Source: Gonapodya prolifera JEL478 (taxonomy: Eukaryota; Monoblepharomycota; Monoblepharidomycetes; Monoblepharidales; Gonapodyaceae). Taken from it: 64,000 nt of DNA. The stretch is taken from NCBI GenBank assembly GCA_001574975.1, contig KQ965808.1, positions 124,001 through 188,000 on the forward strand. Reading direction: 5' to 3'. Shown here piece by piece: positions 282-42,984 of this stretch; position 1 is the first letter of the stretch, and every line of letters begins with the position of its first letter. The notes under the pieces were generated by a model. The model did not search any database. It was not told the origin of the DNA and was given only the letters and a program-made list of their open reading frames with translations. Position numbers and translations under genes: made by a program.

Positions 282-2672
282 TTAATTTTCGCGAAGTAGA
301 ACCCTCTCCGTCGAATCCTTGTCGCTCTTTTGTAAAGCGTCCAATTGTGATGGAACAAGAGGTTTCAAATCCATAAACATGCCGCTCTGTAACAGATCTC
401 CATTTCCACCAGGACCGCGGACATCTACAACCGCAGTTTTGGGCGAGGTGAAAACTTGGCTGGTCATCACTCTCGAGTGGTGGGTCAGGGAGACAGATCT
501 TTGAGCAAACGCGGATGTAGAGGAGGGACCCGCGGGGCCAAGGTAGGTCCTGTGCAGGTCTGGAGCCACAGAGTCCAGGTTCAGTATATCAACAGGGCTG
601 AGTAAAAAGGGCAATTAAGTTTGTAGTTGACAATTTTAAGACAAAGTTAACGTGACACTCACATATACCCAAATTGGCCCGTTGTGAGCTGAAGAATTCA
701 AGAGATTTTCATGAAAACAAAAGAAGAGATCGAATTGCGAGGACAAGCTCACGTTTTTTGCCGAAGCCCAGCCATCTCTAAACACCATTGCGAGCGCGAT
801 TCCGTTTTCAGGCAGCGCAAAGAGCTCATCGTCTTGCGTCGGCGTAAACTGCGAGTCATCACCGTACAGTCGGTTGTGAAATGGTGCATGGAGTCCCTCT
901 TTGGGAAGTTGGCAAACACTTACTGGTACGAGTACAAACAACGGCTCTCCGGGATACGGCACGCCTGTTTGAGCGCTGTTTGGGTCCATGTTACACAGTT
1001 TGGCGGCGTAATTGTAGAACCACTAGCGTTATCAGCGGATCCCAGATCAGGTCAGATGCGATAACGAATCGTTTGACGAGGGTGCGGAATTACCCACGTG
1101 GTTGACGACGGTATGTGAATCTGGCGGATTCACGTCCAGACTTCCGGGGAGTTCGGGCGCACCGACTGCTTTTGATGTCGACGCAGGAGCGAAGAACTTG
1201 GTTCCTGGAACCGTGAGCTGGATGAGCTGGGGTGTTGATACCAGAGACTTCGAGCTCGAATCCGAGACAGCGACAGAGCCAGCGTTTGCGTGCGTGCTGG
1301 AAAGAGTAGTCGCTGACACCGAGAGGAGGTCGCTGTGGGGGAGTGTCCCCGCAGTGGGTGGCGCGAGAACACTTGAAGGGACGATTGATAGTGTTGGTGG
1401 CGGAAGTGATTTGGGAAACGCGTCTTGGTGGGTTTGTTCGACCGCAGAGCCGAGGGTCGACTTTGATGGTGAGGTAGGGAATGGCGGTTCGTATGTGGGT
1501 ACTGTGGTGGGGTGCGGAGAGGTGGACGGATCCGCATTTGCAGACAGCAGGCTTTTGCCTTGCGCGGGCTCGCGGTTTGATGATTTCGCTCTACGTGCGG
1601 GTATCAAGCGCAGTCAGAGATTTCGCAACATGAATACCAAATATGTGGTGCGAACCTTTTCTTGAGGAAGTATGCCGCAAGACCGACTGCCAGGGCGATG
1701 ACGGCTGCCAGCGCACCAGCAGTCGCCCCGGCGATGATTCCTACGTTCTGTCCACCTCCGTTTGCTGGGGATTGTGATGTTGTGTCTACCTTTAGGGCTT
1801 GATGTGATGTACGCGTAAGAATTACATCTGCGACGTGTCTTGGTAAGACATGAGACTGTTTTCCTCACAAGTGGGGAGGCAGGCCAGGACGGTAGCATTC
1901 CATGCGGTGCCATTATTGCAAGTGCATCCGATCTCCGGTGTACTATTCCAACTGCAACACAATTGATAGCCGGTGGTGCGTCAACATGTGGATCAGCAAA
2001 CATGCGGGAGGCGGGCAAAACTTCAACCAATTGATTAAAGACGCGCTGAGATCAATGCGAACTTACTATGAGTTTGGCGAGCAGCACTGGCCCAACTCGC
2101 CTACTGCTGTCCATCCCGATCTGCAAGCGCACTGCTGAAAAGTGTTGGGGATTGTGCCCCACGGGCAATCGGTAGGTGTCGAGTTTGCTCCAAAGCAGCT
2201 AGCGTTGTCCGATGATATATTGTGGACAAATGAAAATGAGGGACAGTGTGCTTCGGAAGATCTTTGCGGCTAGCCTCTCACGTGGCGTAGGTTGCATTCC
2301 AAGTCGTTTCAGCCTTGCACGCACATACACCGGTAGTCTTGTTCCAGCTGTGCGTTTTCATTGCGGTAAAGGTTGCCTGAGTAAACTATCAACGACGATA
2401 TAGCGAAGAGACCGTTCACTCACTCTGAATTCGGGGAGCAACACGTTCCATTCGAAGCCGGATGGTACCCAGTGATGCAGTTGCATTTTCCAGCGCCATC
2501 GTCGACAGTTCCAAAGGGGCAGGTCTGAGATGCGAAAGTGGGATCGCAATCTTAGGATGGATGGTGGTGGGAGTCACTCTGAGACCCGACCCACTTGAAC
2601 GAGGGAGATGGATACAAGGGCCGTGGCAATGGGCGAAGAGAAAAACCTTCTTCTGGCTGTTTTGACTGCCAT
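282..2672 (-). CDS. Secreted-Cys-module / transmembrane / SH3 protein
   Basis: Eleven exons, with introns read from GT..AG sites and a spliced length of 1620 nt (539 aa). Exons: 2672-2595, 2524-2424, 2347-2282, 2198-2067, 1951-1869, 1785-1656, 1590-1098, 1022-924, 848-753, 688-663, 597-282. The N-terminus is a signal peptide (MAVKTARRRFFSSPIATALV..). Two eight-cysteine modules follow (about residues 27-153), each reading CPxGT..CxC..G..CCSPNS..WN.T..CxC..WNAT..C. Exons 2-3 and 4-5 each encode one module. A glycine-rich stretch leads into one membrane helix (GIIAGATAGALAAVIALAVG, about 165-185) and a KKR stop-transfer. A Ser/Thr/Pro-rich cytoplasmic tail follows, then an SH3 domain (about 362-436: TPTQDDELFAL, GWASAKN, TGQFGYIPVDIL). 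SH3 domains bind proline-rich ligands; fungal Sho1 is a membrane-SH3 sensor, but this topology differs. A surface sensor/adaptor role is inference. It is divergently transcribed from VPS18. Confidence 0.85.
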
Positions 2673-3008: not shown

Positions 3009-6000
3009 ATGTCCCTCTTTGACGCGATCGAAGGCGACCCCGAACCCCGTTCGCGAGGGCCCTACGGCCGACCCATATCTGTCGCGGACTCTTTCGACCT
3101 CTCTACCACAGCACGCGGCCTTCAGTTGCCCATCGGTGGGCAGGGGGTCGATGGACTCGGAGGGCTCGCAGGCGGATCGCCCGTGTTGCCCTCGCTCGAA
3201 CTCGTAGCAAATGCAGCTGGTGGCGGTACGGGACGGCTGGAACAGGTTCCCGTGTTCGCGCTGGATCCCGTGCAGTTTGCATTTCCGGGGGAGCTCGTGG
3301 CGGTCGCAGTGGCGAACAATATCCTGGCTGCAGCAGTAGATGTGAATGGAGTGGGTCATAGACTATTGCGGATTGACCTGTCCAAGTCGGCGGGGGAGCG
3401 GGATGCCGTTGAAGGTGTGTTGACATTTGACATGTGTTTGGAACGAACGATTCTGTAGTTCTTGGACCGAATCTCCTGTTTTATTTACTAAACGCTTGGA
3501 TTCGATACGAAGATGGTATTGAATTGGGTTGGAGTTCCCTCTGAACGTTCCTGTTTGGCTAGCACGTGTATGCCTCAGCCATAACCAGCTTTCATTATCG
3601 CCGACGAGTTTCTCACCTTCACTCTCTCTTCACACAGAAATCGATGTCTTCCCTACACGCCCTCCCAACGCATCATCAGCAACCTCATCCTCCGCCCCAC
3701 CCATCAACAAAGTTCGCGGCATGTATTTCGACCACTTTGGAAGGCACCTCCTCATAACAACAACGTTGGGCGACGTGTATTATCTGTTCGCAGGGTGGAA
3801 GCGAGCAAGGATGATGATTAAGCTCAGAGTGAGTCACTACCGCCGTTTCGTAAACGAATTACACCACAACCGTCCGGCTCACTTCCCAGGGCCTCCACGT
3901 ACACGCCGTCTCGTTCCCGCCACCATACCCTCCACCACCACCCTCACCTTCACCGTCCTACCTCGCTCGAAACTCCCCCACAACTGGCCCCACCCTCCTC
4001 GCCACCCGTTCGGGCAAACTTTTCGAAGTGGACTTCCGCGCAGACGCCGAGCGCGGGAAGGAGGAGCGGTATCTCAAGCAAGTCTGGATTGCGGAGTCAG
4101 ACCCGGGATCGGCGGATGCGGGGGAGGAGGGAATGGGCGTTACAGGTGTTCGTTGGGAATGGGCACAAGTACCGGAGCCGTCAACTGGAACTGACGCCGC
4201 CCCGTCCAATACCCAAGCCCACCCTACCGCCATCGTTCTACTTAGTACCCGCCGTGACCTCTTCGCCTTCGCGGGCGCGGTGCCACCCTACCACGCGGAC
4301 CCTACCGGGGCACAATCGACCTTACTGGGCGTGTTCTCCAATGACCCCGTAGCGACCCTCGAAGTGAACCAACCACCTGGATCACCCACTTCCCAGCCCC
4401 CGCCTCGCGCCCCGGCACTTTCCGTGTACCGCCCACCCGACGACGCACCAGACGGGTCTGGCCCTGCACCGGCGGAGCGGTTCGCGTGGGGAACACAGGC
4501 GGGCGTGATGGTCGGGGTGCTGGATCTCGCGGACGCCAAGAACCCGGTGAAGGAGGCTGAACTTGTGCCGTACCCGCCGTCGGACCTGTTGGGGACAGCG
4601 GCGCCGAGCGCGCCGTCGGCCCAGCCTGCGGATTCTAACGCCCCCAAGCCGACTCCGCCCACACCTATATCTGTCCTCTGTGCAGCCGTTCATGTGCTTC
4701 TCCTTTACCCGCGCCGCATCACCGCTTGCTCCGCTTTGTCCCTCGCTCCCACTTGGACAGCTGTTCTGCCCACACCGGCAAACTCCACGCCCACGACACC
4801 ACCTGCGCTCCACCTGGCCTGCGACACCTCTGCGGGAACTTTCTGGGTCCCGCTACGCCCTTCTCTTGTCGAACTCCTCGCGACCGACGAGCGCCGTGAC
4901 GAATGGCTCGCCCTGCTCCAGCGGGGCAAGTTCTCCTCTGCTACCCGAGCAGCACGAACTGAAGTGCAGAGAAGAGCCGTCGCCAGAGCTGAAGGGGAGG
5001 CTAAGTGGGAAGAGGGAAAGTACGGGGAGGCAGCGGCGAGTTGGGCGGGAGCGGATGTGGGGGTGGAAGAGGTGGCTGTGAGGTTGTGGAGTGTTGGCGA
5101 GAAGGATGGGTTGAGAGTATTTTTGGAAGGAAGGTTGGAAGGTGCAAGAAAGAGCGTACGTAGTGTCGTTTCGGGTGTCGATGTCAGAGACATACTTTCC
5201 GCTCGACTAGGACGTCATCCAAAAAGTCTTACTCTGCACCTGGCTCACCGAACTCTACTTAGATCGCCTCGATTCCATCCCACCTCCTCCCCCCTCATCC
5301 TCAACAGACCCATCCCACCCTTACGTTGCCGCTCAGACGTCACTCCTCTCCTTCCTCCACCACAACCTCGCCTCGCTGGACGTGCCCACCACGTTCCAGC
5401 TCATACAGTCACATTCCCACCCGGCCCTCTACCTTTCGTTTGCCCGTCTCGTCGGAGATTGGGATCGGGCACTTGCCCACTTGGTTTCGGAGAAGCAGTG
5501 GGATGAGGCTGTGGATATGTTGACGACGAAGGTCCCCCTTGGACGAGCTGCGGACCTATCGTACAAGTACAGTGCAGAACTCATGAGTGAGCGACCATCT
5601 GACACGGTAGCTGGGTGGATACGTATGGGTGGGGGAGTAAACCCGAAGCATCTTGTTCCAGCCATGGTGAGGTATGATGTAGAGAGGTCGACAAAGACGA
5701 AGGAAGTTGGAGTGGACAGCAAAGGTGATAAGGGTGAGGCTCACCAAGGAGTTCGGTACTTGAGGTTTGTGGTGGACAAGCTGGGTAACAAGGATGCTGC
5801 GGTGCACAATTATCTTGTTGCGTTGTATGTCGCGAGGGCTGGTGAAGTGGGGGAAGAGACGAGTGGGATACTGGAATTTTTACGAGGGGTGAGTGATTGT
5901 TTAATATTCGTGCTCATTAAATACCGTGACGATGTGTCAAGCAATCTTCCCAGCATCGGACTCCACACTACGACCTCCATTATGCCCTCCGTCTCTGCAG

Positions 6001-30813: not shown

Positions 30814-32807
30814 ATGAGTAATCACATCGCCTCTTGGCGCTACAAGCACTTACAAGAGTCGAGACTGGAAGTACTGACTATGGTATTAGTCAAGCTTTCG
30901 CCGCACTTCCTCTTCCGTCGCAAGAGATTTCTCTCCGGAAATCTATTTTCTCTCGACGGAGAGCACCCTCGAACTTGACGGGAGCTCCCGTTCTCGCATC
31001 CGCCTCTATTGAGCTTCACGTATTTGAGCCCGAGGAAGACAAGTACATCAAATTGTCTGAAGATCTTCGATTGGAGATCGTTGGTATCGACAAATCTTGC
31101 GAATACTATCTTCGGGTTGATCAACCTGCCCCACAAGAAAGCTCGTCCGCGCAGAAATCATCAAGTGAGTGACGCGACAACCATTCTCCTTGACGGTTAT
31201 AATATTGAGCCAAACTGCTCTTTTCCAGAACCGTACTCTGCCTCAAAAAATTTCGGCAATATGAAGGACAGAATTTTGCATGCCATCGGACTGAGCGACG
31301 GGAACCCTTTGATTATTCAGGAGCTTTCACAATCCCTCAATCCAGTGTTTCGAGCCGACTCGGCTTCTTTGACGGTGAATGTCATGGACGAGACGACAGA
31401 TGATAGCCGATACCAAGCGCTCAGGTTTGATTTCAAGAACGACTCGTCGCCCTTCTGGAGCCGATTCTGCGATCTCATGGTGAGTGACGTCCAGTCCTCT
31501 TTTGACAATGGTTTTGGAGGTTAACCGTTCCTGTCGTCTAGTTCGAGTCCGCTGCTCGGACAGCAGACTCGCGAGCGTCTAAAGCTATTATGGACGTCAG
31601 CACGGCGCCACCATCAAAGCCTTTTTTGGCGCAAGCTTTTACTGACGCTACCGTCGTAATGAATGAAGATCGCGCTATGTCAGACGGCGATGATGCGGAC
31701 GATATCCAATCGTTTAATTCTTCCACAGCACTCCTTCGAATTCAGCCTGACAATTTATCGAGTGGTGGCTACCAAATTTTTCAACTCGCCAAATCGAAAG
31801 ACTGGTCTTTGGCTCTCACCCCCGGTGAACTGCGTCTCTTTGAGCATGTCGATTCATTTGACGGTGGAATTAGAACAACCACCTTCAAACTTGTTCGCCA
31901 GGTTTCTTTGCCTTCGATATCCCAATCGGGGGGCATGCATGTCGAACGGTCAGACCTTTCTTCTGTGCCGGAAAGTTCCCGCTCGGAATTCGCACTTTGC
32001 TTCAATGATAAAACTGCCTTTTTGGTCCGAAAAGAGCGTCCCCAGATCGTCCTCGTCGTGAATACGGAGCGAGGATCCCTTGAAGACGAATGCTTCATTC
32101 CTGCATCATCACCCATCATAAGCATGGCAGCGTTCCCTCCCAAATATGGTCACACGTCCACACGAATTCTCGTTCTCATTGAGAGGGCGATTTTACACGT
32201 GGACACGACAGAATCTTTAGACAATAGGATCTTGGATAAGCTGGAATTCCCTTCTCCACGGGCAGAGACTATGACAGCATTTGGAACTGATATCAACGGT
32301 CGTGTTGCTGTGGGGACATCAACGGGCGAGATAGGAATGTTTGGAGGAGTTCCTGGCGAATATCAGTCTGTGGTACCTCCTCTTGGCCCCCCTGCGAAAT
32401 CCGTCACCTTCTCCGAAGACGGCAACCATTTGGTAGCCACGTTCACGTCCTTCGTAATCGTGGTTGATCTTTCCAGACCAGACTCAACGCCAACACGGGT
32501 GCACCTTCGACCAGAGCAAGTGGTCATTGTCGCTACACAAGAGCCCTCATTTGACCTATCCTTCACCTTGGCTTGCCTGAGCGCCAGTGGGCGATACGTC
32601 GCTTCCGCTTCCGGAAGTTATTTGTTTGTGTGGGATGTAGCGAAGGCGGCGAGGGGTATCCTGGAGCCTTGTCACATCAAGGACATGGGTGGGCGCATTG
32701 TAGCCCAGGAGTTTAGGCATGGTGGCGATGGTGGCGACGGTGAAGACTTGGTCGTTATGCTGGAGGACCAACTCAAAATTGTCCGAAATCTGGGATATCG
32801 TCGCTGA
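30814..32807 (+). CDS. VID27-like protein
   Basis: The C-terminal beta-propeller part matches the VID27 pattern: FELALCFNDKTAFLV-like and LEDECFIPASSPIISMAAFP segments, TAFGTDINGRVAVGTSTGEI, PPLGPPAKSVTFSEDGNHLV, ATFTSFVIVVDL, LACLSASGRYVASASGSYLF and VWDVAKAARG. Upstream, a PH-like region (ASIELHVFEPEEDKYIKLSE, LRLEIVGIDKSCEYYLRVD), an intron (about 31166-31228) and a second exon (KPYSASKNFGNMKDRILHAI) lead into the last exon after an intron near 31483-31541. The 5' end is uncertain: the ATG at 30814 is the first plausible one but lies in a different frame from the PH-like exon, so a small intron near 30870-30950 is needed. VID27 proteins are conserved fungal/plant cytosolic factors of unclear role. 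Only 7 nt separate this ATG from the stop of the gene upstream. Confidence 0.7.
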
Positions 32808-41719: not shown

Positions 41720-42984
41720 TCAAAGAGTCCTTGACGTGCCTTGAGTAGGGCTGTTTCTACAGTTCCAATAGCAGTTGACAAACCGACCCCTTCTTTCCAC
41801 CTGCAGCTCTTCAAAGTCCGGCAAACCGTTTTTCCCACAGACCGGTTTGTGCCACTTCCAATGTGCGCGCTGGCATTCCGGAGAGCAGTATCGGACGCAC
41901 TTGCAACCCTTGCAGAGACGGAGGTTGGCGAGATCCTCGTGCTCCTGGCCGATTTCGCCAACGCTTCTCCAAGGTACATCGCGAGCGGAAGGTTTGCGCT
42001 TGTTCACCCGCATGTGTTTCCTGCAGTTGAAAGCTCCACATATGTAGACGGGAGTAATGGAGGACTTGATGGGAGTTCCGGGATGTGCTATTTCATTCTG
42101 TATATGACGAAGGACGCTAGTGTTTTTTGAGATAGATATTCGCGGAGAAGGAATGAACTGTCCCGGTGTTGCACGTGCAACCAATTCTTTGTGCTCAGCC
42201 AGACGCTTGTCCATAACGTTAACCTCGACACTCCACTCCTGGAGAAATTCTATGTATCGATCATGAAGTGACAGTTTTCTCACAATGGAAGTGACATGTG
42301 ATGGAGAAGGTGGATCCCAGAAGTATTGCGAGACAGAATGGTACATCCCACTGTCGTATTCTGCTGCATCATGTATCCCAAGTTCTGTGTTCACCAAACC
42401 CTGCCACCTGTGCATCAAGATGCTGAAATCAGCGACATCATCCAGATGTTTCAGGTCCTCAAAGAGGCTGAGGTGGAGGTCGGGGTCTCCGTCCCAAAAG
42501 AAGTGGACCATTAGCAAGATAGTGAAGGCCCTCCGAACAAGACCTTTTTCTTTGTCGCTCATTTGCGTCCACTGAGAGCCACACAGCGCCTTCCACCTCA
42601 TTATTCGCACCACCAAGAGTCCAAACTCAGAAAGCATGTATGTGAGGAAAGATGGTGTTACCCCTAGTCGCACGATTGCTGTCCTAACCGCCCTGGCGCG
42701 CGTGTCTCCCATACCACCCGCGAATACTGCTCGCCTGAGAACGCCTGAGTAAACATCAGCACAGTAATTGCACGAAACGACGTGATGGAAGATAGCAAAG
42801 AGTTCGTGAGAGCTCCAAATGAGGATTCCGCGATCGAATATGAGAATATGATGTCGGCCTTTGTGCTACAATCCTCGGGATGGAACTCTTCGCTCATCAC
42901 GTCGTGCCAGCTCACGTGCTCACAGAGAAGACGTGCGAGCTCGTCTGCGGCGCTGCTGTTGGCGTCAAAGGAGGCAAGATCCAT
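41720..42984 (-). CDS. MYND zinc-finger protein, copy A
   Basis: Starts MDLASFDANSSAADELARLL at 42984. A long alpha-helical region follows (SHELFAIFHHVVSCNYCADV, DKEKGLVRRAFTILLMVHFF, HDRYIEFLQEWSVEVN). A C-terminal MYND finger reads LRLCKGCKCVRYCSPECQRA, HWKWHKPVCG, with the Cys/His pattern complete, and a CxxC-like pair (YICGAFNCRKH) upstream. MYND fingers mediate protein-protein contacts. Near 42835 the N-terminal frame (ADIIFS) and the downstream frame (GILIWSSHEL) do not meet, while copy B reads straight through there. So one frameshift is present, or an undetected small intron or base error. Tandem duplicate of the next gene, with similarity extending into both flanks. Confidence 0.65.

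Follow-up and report, generated by a model that had tools for sequence, protein, structure and literature searches.

Fus1 of Saccharomyces cerevisiae is encoded by a single gene and consists of an ectodomain, one membrane helix and a cytosolic SH3 domain. A comparable protein is predicted from the window analysed here, a 64,000-nucleotide stretch of the Gonapodya prolifera JEL478 genome: one helix, assigned by hydrophobicity, lies between the ectodomain and a cytosolic SH3 domain. Unlike Fus1, the window gene (labelled C78) has an ectodomain of cysteine modules, a W-element ahead of the SH3, a DVRGP tail and many related loci. Its modules resemble EGF-like, EB and TNFR-type modules in their CxCxxG hairpins and as disulfide-rich extracellular repeats, but form an eight-cysteine unit with CCSPNS and a conserved tryptophan that lies below every Pfam cut-off. 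The wider family seems, like the LRR receptor kinases and Toll-like receptors of plants, oomycetes and animals, to pair varied ectodomains, often LRR, with one cytosolic domain. It differs from them in that an SH3 replaces the kinase or TIR domain, and the window gene itself has no LRR (none in a Pfam scan of its protein).

According to a survey of 101 species, 49 of them fungi, LRR receptors are absent from fungi, the exceptions being five cases that carry no other domains (Soanes and Talbot 2010, PMC2939053). The same survey reports fungi to be without LRR-type pattern-recognition receptors (PMC2939053), and surface sensing of neighbours or hosts in fungi is an open question. A literature search of partial coverage, comprising mostly titles and the beginnings of abstracts, yielded no description of transmembrane SH3 receptors with LRR, or with the present module, in chytrids. 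For the window gene, the Fus1-type layout is already known; what appears to be new is an ectodomain module outside known families, together with its many relatives.

Gene model and protein layout

The window gene lies on the minus strand at 282-2672. Splice reconstruction from the sequence gave 11 exons (2672-2595, 2524-2424, 2347-2282, 2198-2067, 1951-1869, 1785-1656, 1590-1098, 1022-924, 848-753, 688-663 and 597-282) and a product of 539 aa. Its features are as follows.

2595..2672, minus strand: exon 1, start codon and signal peptide; open frame with phase-0 donor GTGGGT, signal peptide (hydrophobic N terminus) by eye
2424..2524, minus strand: exon 2, first half of module A (CPFGT..CNC..GYH..CCSPNS); splice model and module alignment
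2282..2347, minus strand: exon 3, second half of module A (W..CAC..W); the last module A cysteine codon, 2197-2195, is in exon 4
2067..2198, minus strand: exon 4, final cysteine of module A, linker and first half of module B (from 2170); splice model
1869..1951, minus strand: exon 5, second half of module B; last cysteine codon ends at 1879
1656..1785, minus strand: exon 6, stalk, membrane helix at about 1744-1664 and a KKR behind it; helix by hydrophobicity and the positive charges after it
1098..1590, minus strand: exon 7, Ser/Thr/Pro-rich cytosolic linker; fastest-evolving part of the gene
924..1022, minus strand: exon 8, first strand of the SH3, preceded by the WF..VPYPG element, whose W hardly varies among 11 aligned relatives
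576..947, minus strand: SH3 domain; profile matches, split by introns between VP and FTP, KN and LTT, and Y and IPV
282..597, minus strand: exon 11, end of SH3, tail and stop; splice model
486..500, minus strand: RSVSL tail peptide; in 5/5 module-SH3 genes, matching the wider Fus1 SH3 ligand motif R[ST]X[SW]L (PMC5417721)
411..425, minus strand: DVRGP tail motif; in 5/5 module-SH3 genes, common to other ectodomain classes

All 10 introns are GT-AG and 64-115 nt long, the exon end phases (0,2,2,2,1,2,0,0,0,2) are mutually compatible, and the frame runs uninterrupted to a TAA stop at 284-282. Other splice choices interrupted the reading frame and were rejected. The model was re-derived with the title and limits of the preliminary description already known, and thus not blind; an identical model was returned from the protein by a purpose-written spliced aligner, which is a program check rather than independent proof. 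The eleven-exon layout described earlier, with signal peptide, two modules, helix and SH3, was recovered in this way as phase-compatible and open, and paralogs carry the same order.

The predicted protein comprises a signal peptide, two eight-cysteine modules, a stalk, one helix followed by KKRAK, a Ser/Thr/Pro linker, the SH3 and a tail, with 16 cysteines in the ectodomain. A counterpart of the exon 4 linker, C(Y/F)G..PT(D/N)C, was read in the C53 and C102a paralogs. These features support a putative single-pass surface SH3 protein.

The eight-cysteine module and its paralogs

The alignment of 19 modules, the better-preserved of about 27, gave the consensus CPWGT..QCxC.TGWTP..GQCCSPNSYW....GCxCN.GT.WN....C, in which the last cysteine was assumed in 6/19 rows. 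The module tryptophan is invariant or nearly so in these 19 modules, while the N and T of WNxT vary. WNxT was therefore rejected as a family signature, and of the WNxT/WNAT signature proposed in the preliminary description only the W is conserved.

None of the 19 modules reached a Pfam cut-off, EGF-type families included. The weak partial matches were mostly to EGF-like hairpins and covered about half a module or less. The nearest sub-threshold scores were 21.5 bits against a cut-off of 23.7 for Colipase_C (one module), and 19.7 against 26.8 for RANK_CRD_2 (another module); cEGF gave 18.5 against 26.6. By number of modules matched, RANK_CRD_2 led with 9/19, followed by cEGF and EGF_Teneurin with 6/19 each. 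There was no NCBIfam match to the module. In the PDB, a single-module query found nothing up to E 10 and the best match to a module profile had only E 0.5. The two halves of the module align over 13 columns around CxCxxG with 61% probability, and from this likeness the module may consist of two EGF-like hairpins.

That the module belongs, in diverged form, to a known cysteine-rich family (EGF-like, EB or TNFR-type) and is not new is a serious possibility, to which we would assign somewhat less than an even chance. It draws on the sub-threshold matches to RANK_CRD_2, cEGF and, once, Colipase_C and on the half-to-half alignment; the failure of all 19 modules to reach a cut-off, the restriction of the matches to about half a module or less, and the lack of a solved relative speak against it. 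The earlier remark that no named domain with this pattern was known is supported by 19 modules with no Pfam family above cut-off, no NCBIfam match and no usefully scoring solved structure. Its putative newness as a family rests on limited searches. No relatives were found in plasmids or in bacterial and archaeal genomes; in viral contigs no module was found by sequence, and the one weak profile candidate was a CCSPNS-like stretch only. By their descriptions, fungal genomes make up little or nothing of these collections, so that absence from them says little.

A query with the module pair matched 29 stretches of the genome, window included, which we grouped into 13 genes or fragments; apart from the window gene there are twelve, spread over nine further contigs. 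Outside the window gene the module occurs mostly as doublets, including in genes without an SH3 match in the stretches read, and is therefore probably an extracellular unit. The module-SH3 set is limited to five genes with close pairs among them, namely the window gene, two on contig C102 (C102a and C102b), one on C30 and one on C166. The order of doublet, helix and SH3 is identical in the four further genes, with an incomplete doublet in C166. The C166 copy (L038, 5307-7356 and upstream) is a pseudogene, with a stop in the SH3 and the start of module A missing; by eye, it is adjoined by a frame resembling the end of a copia-type polyprotein. In C30 and C102b the helix is preceded by additional poly-Pro sequence and by a small cysteine domain of EB-like type (EB 21.9 bits, cut-off 24.3). 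A more distant SH3 match lies directly upstream of the C102a module gene (L039 3379-3513).

No SH3 match was found within the fetched stretches of the eight other module genes or fragments (two on C53, one on C33, one on C2, two on C138, one on C59 and one on C14). The C53 and C33 genes have poly-Pro linkers and cysteine-containing C-terminal domains, and these tails had no Pfam match. The C2 gene carries four modules, one of them partial, and six pieces of it gave one chance-level match only when compared with Pfam. The C14 locus is a damaged piece. In the second C138 gene (L045 4066-4412) the first module no longer has its CC pair, and this copy is probably decaying. The cysteine-rich C-terminal domain of C53 (L042 4066-4410, 5696-6043) recurs at C119:138807-139323 with 63-72% identity; weaker matches lie on C8, C32 and C44. 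A CCSPNS codon pattern had 51 matches in the genome versus 9 for a control pattern, 22 of them inside module genes and 29 outside; further module genes may exist among these 29 and at a weak match at C5:248784-248903.

Six of the 10 introns of the window gene coincide in phase and alignment column across the five models, and one more does so in the four whose start is intact; the paralog models were guided by the window protein, which biases them towards agreement, and the stalk of C30 and C102b was not reliably modelled. For the C102b-C30 pair, dN/dS was 0.127 in the ectodomain, 0.304 in the linker and 0.182 in the SH3 and tail; for C102a-C166 the corresponding values were 0.213, 0.443 and 0.105. 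The C78-C102a comparison, with dS near saturation, gave 0.13 overall and 0.108 in the ectodomain, and dS was largely saturated for the remaining gene pairs. The codon changes demonstrate purifying selection on the ectodomain and the SH3. Between C102b and C30 (L040, L041), dS was 0.126 in the SH3 and tail versus 0.548 in the ectodomain, as gene conversion could give.

The preliminary description attributed the spread of the module to tandem duplication of exon pairs 2-3 and 4-5. Pair 2-3 runs from phase 0 to 2 over 167 nt and pair 4-5 from phase 2 to 1 over 215 nt. Being asymmetric in phase, neither can be a frame-preserving intron-to-intron duplication unit, and this route was rejected as incompatible with the phases. 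Exon 3, exon 4 or the two together (2-2, 198 nt) are phase-symmetric and could be the duplication unit. The intron after CCSPNS is present in both window modules and in C2 modules 2 and 4, and absent in C53, C33, the first C138 gene and C59, a pattern that would fit an old intron lost in some genes.

In the module tree, the A modules of the SH3 genes group together (99/96), as do their B modules (95/96). The A and B labels are clustered, needing 3 changes on the tree as opposed to 6.8-6.9 when shuffled; so low a count came up in 3 and 0 of 500 shuffles. However, 0% of bootstrap trees place A and B on one side each, deep branches are weak, and in C33 the A and B modules each fall in the group of the other class. 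Modules of the same class share a mean identity of 59% across genes, versus 51% between A and B both within a gene and across genes. Since the classes group across genes and doublets occur in genes without SH3, the doublet is probably older than the window gene.

The SH3 domain and its recurrence in the genome

The SH3 piece of the window protein scored 22.4 bits against PF00018, with a cut-off of 22.9 and E 9e-5, and the whole protein 17 bits; a genome-wide SH3_1 search did not include it among its matches. A profile of 11 relatives, the window SH3 included, matches solved SH3 domains at E 6e-9, and the domain is accepted as a predicted SH3. The usual SH3 consensus at the first strand is ALYDY; the window SH3 reads VLVPF at this position. 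The residue after the conserved tryptophan is A in the window SH3 and A, S or G in 11/11 aligned SH3s, never aromatic. The groove of the window SH3, as predicted, is unusual.

The yeast Fus1 SH3 is set apart by cysteines at positions 37 and 54 (PMC5823434) and binds R[ST][ST]SL, or in a wider form R[ST]X[SW]L (PMC5417721). In our alignment, the window SH3 appears to be like Fus1 in having no aromatic at groove position 37 (A here, Cys in Fus1), and unlike it at the position equated with 54, which is I rather than Cys54. That position apparently reads C in L056, L057, L061 and L063, though the query used there ended in ACL, letters supplied from expectation; at three of these loci CLRL follows in frame past the query end.

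The RSVSL peptide of the window protein fits the wider Fus1 ligand motif. Its presence in all five module-SH3 genes suggests contact with the SH3 in cis or trans, a possible switch. Among 16 other SH3 loci, R.[VTA]S[LQRSM] followed the SH3 in six, versus 3.3 (maximum 8) in shuffles, three upstream and two antisense; with no enrichment there, RSVSL was rejected as a family-wide motif. An exact RTTSL was seen by eye in one L066 frame, just beyond the stretch counted.

The window SH3 query gave 117 genome matches up to E 3, which merged into 111 loci. Of these, 39 were at E<0.001, and the 72 weaker ones may include ordinary SH3 proteins. An LRR query gave 116 hits in the genome. LRR matches lay upstream on the same strand within 3.5 kb at 29/111 SH3 loci (13/39 at E<0.001), versus 6 downstream on the same strand, 0 upstream and 3 downstream on the opposite strand; with a query taken from a gene linked to SH3 and scoring limited to the best candidates, these counts are biased and are lower bounds.

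Beyond the module genes, 16 SH3 loci were read. The sample was non-random, with the first eight among the best matches (four in the LRR list) and the second eight without an LRR hit. A helix candidate followed by positive charges was present upstream of the SH3 in 13/16; the antisense strand gave 2/16 and shuffles 0.34 (maximum 2). No helix candidate was found at L058, L063 and L070, with a weaker stretch by eye at L063. By eye, the ectodomains are LRR (L056, L059, L061, L063), cysteine-rich (L062, L067) or Pro/Ser/Thr-rich (L065, L066, L068, L069, L071). The LRR of L061 was confirmed by Pfam (PF00560, 42 bits, cut-off 20.6). PQQ-like repeats were seen by eye upstream of the SH3 in L070, and the other loci read showed no clear ectodomain type.

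The cytosolic side is shared in several respects. The pre-SH3 element HWF...VPY.G recurs among the relatives, and an intron directly precedes the SH3 in the first eight loci, as found by a splice search guided by a relative. Exact DVRGP occurs in 4/16 loci; the form [DN][VI]RG[PL], widened after some loci had been inspected, is in the tail of 5/16; shuffles gave 0.07 (maximum 1), and the upstream and antisense controls gave 0 each. At the level of sequence, the SH3 end thus appears as a shared chassis behind differing ectodomains, LRR included, in many genes of this genome. This apparent recurrence behind other ectodomains is the larger finding and goes beyond what the preliminary description envisaged. 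The genome holds many putative LRR-helix-SH3 genes (e.g., L056, L059, L061, L063), contrary to the reported absence of LRR receptors from fungi.

Proposed role and alternatives

In our best reading, with a probability of about 0.6, the product of the window gene is a type I surface protein with a single membrane pass, either a receptor or an adhesin; its modules would bind ligand and its SH3 cassette would recruit cortical partners. The surface sensor or adhesin envisaged earlier is thus kept as a candidate role. The part order, the paralogs, the purifying selection and the recurring cassette belong to what can be read from the sequences themselves. Two disulfide-rich modules, each perhaps two EGF-like hairpins, would face the wall or the outside, where a wall polymer, a substrate or a matrix ligand may be what they bind. 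The cytosolic cassette, which many genes appear to place behind different ectodomains, would comprise the W-element, the unusual-groove SH3 and the DVRGP tail. Ligand contact or clustering might gather or free the SH3, which could then recruit cortical actin or polarity partners, and contact of the SH3 with the RSVSL tail, in cis or trans, might act as a switch.

It is rather unlikely that the protein is mainly a structural adhesin, in which the module would be a carbohydrate- or wall-binding unit and the SH3 only a cortex anchor with no signalling. The module is common to secreted-looking proteins with poly-Pro linkers and cysteine-containing C-terminal domains, a layout resembling that of carbohydrate-binding modules on linkers, and it has conserved aromatic positions. 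However, none of the module genes was seen joined to a known carbohydrate enzyme: neither the tails of C53 and C33 nor the C2 pieces had a useful Pfam match, in models that stop short of the ends of the C2, C138, C59 and C14 genes. A Fus1-type fusion or mating protein, whose SH3 would gather fusion machinery at contact sites, would account for the Fus1 layout, the unusual groove and a tail peptide fitting the Fus1 motif, but is improbable in view of the many SH3 loci with many ectodomains here versus the single Fus1 gene.

Beyond the surface receptor or adhesin proposed for the window gene, we tentatively suggest, with a confidence that stays below one half, a receptor repertoire of a flagellated fungus on a plan comparable to plant receptor kinases. 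The SH3 cassette would be constant and the ectodomains (LRR, eight-cysteine, other cysteine-rich, Pro/Ser-rich) exchanged, giving a class undescribed for fungi, into which a Fus1-type peptide switch might be built. If true, a zoosporic fungus would offer a concrete candidate sensing system in which the SH3 end stays constant and the ectodomains are exchangeable, and the eight-cysteine module would count as a new unit that receptors share with secreted-looking proteins.

Radial spoke and Chitin_synth_1 genes are present in the genome and point to a flagellated fungus. Within the window, the plus-strand neighbour of the module gene (4028-5506) encodes a Vps18/Pep3 propeller (PF05131); a VID27-like gene lies at 31590-32804 on the plus strand and a MYND-finger gene at 41723-42712 on the minus strand.
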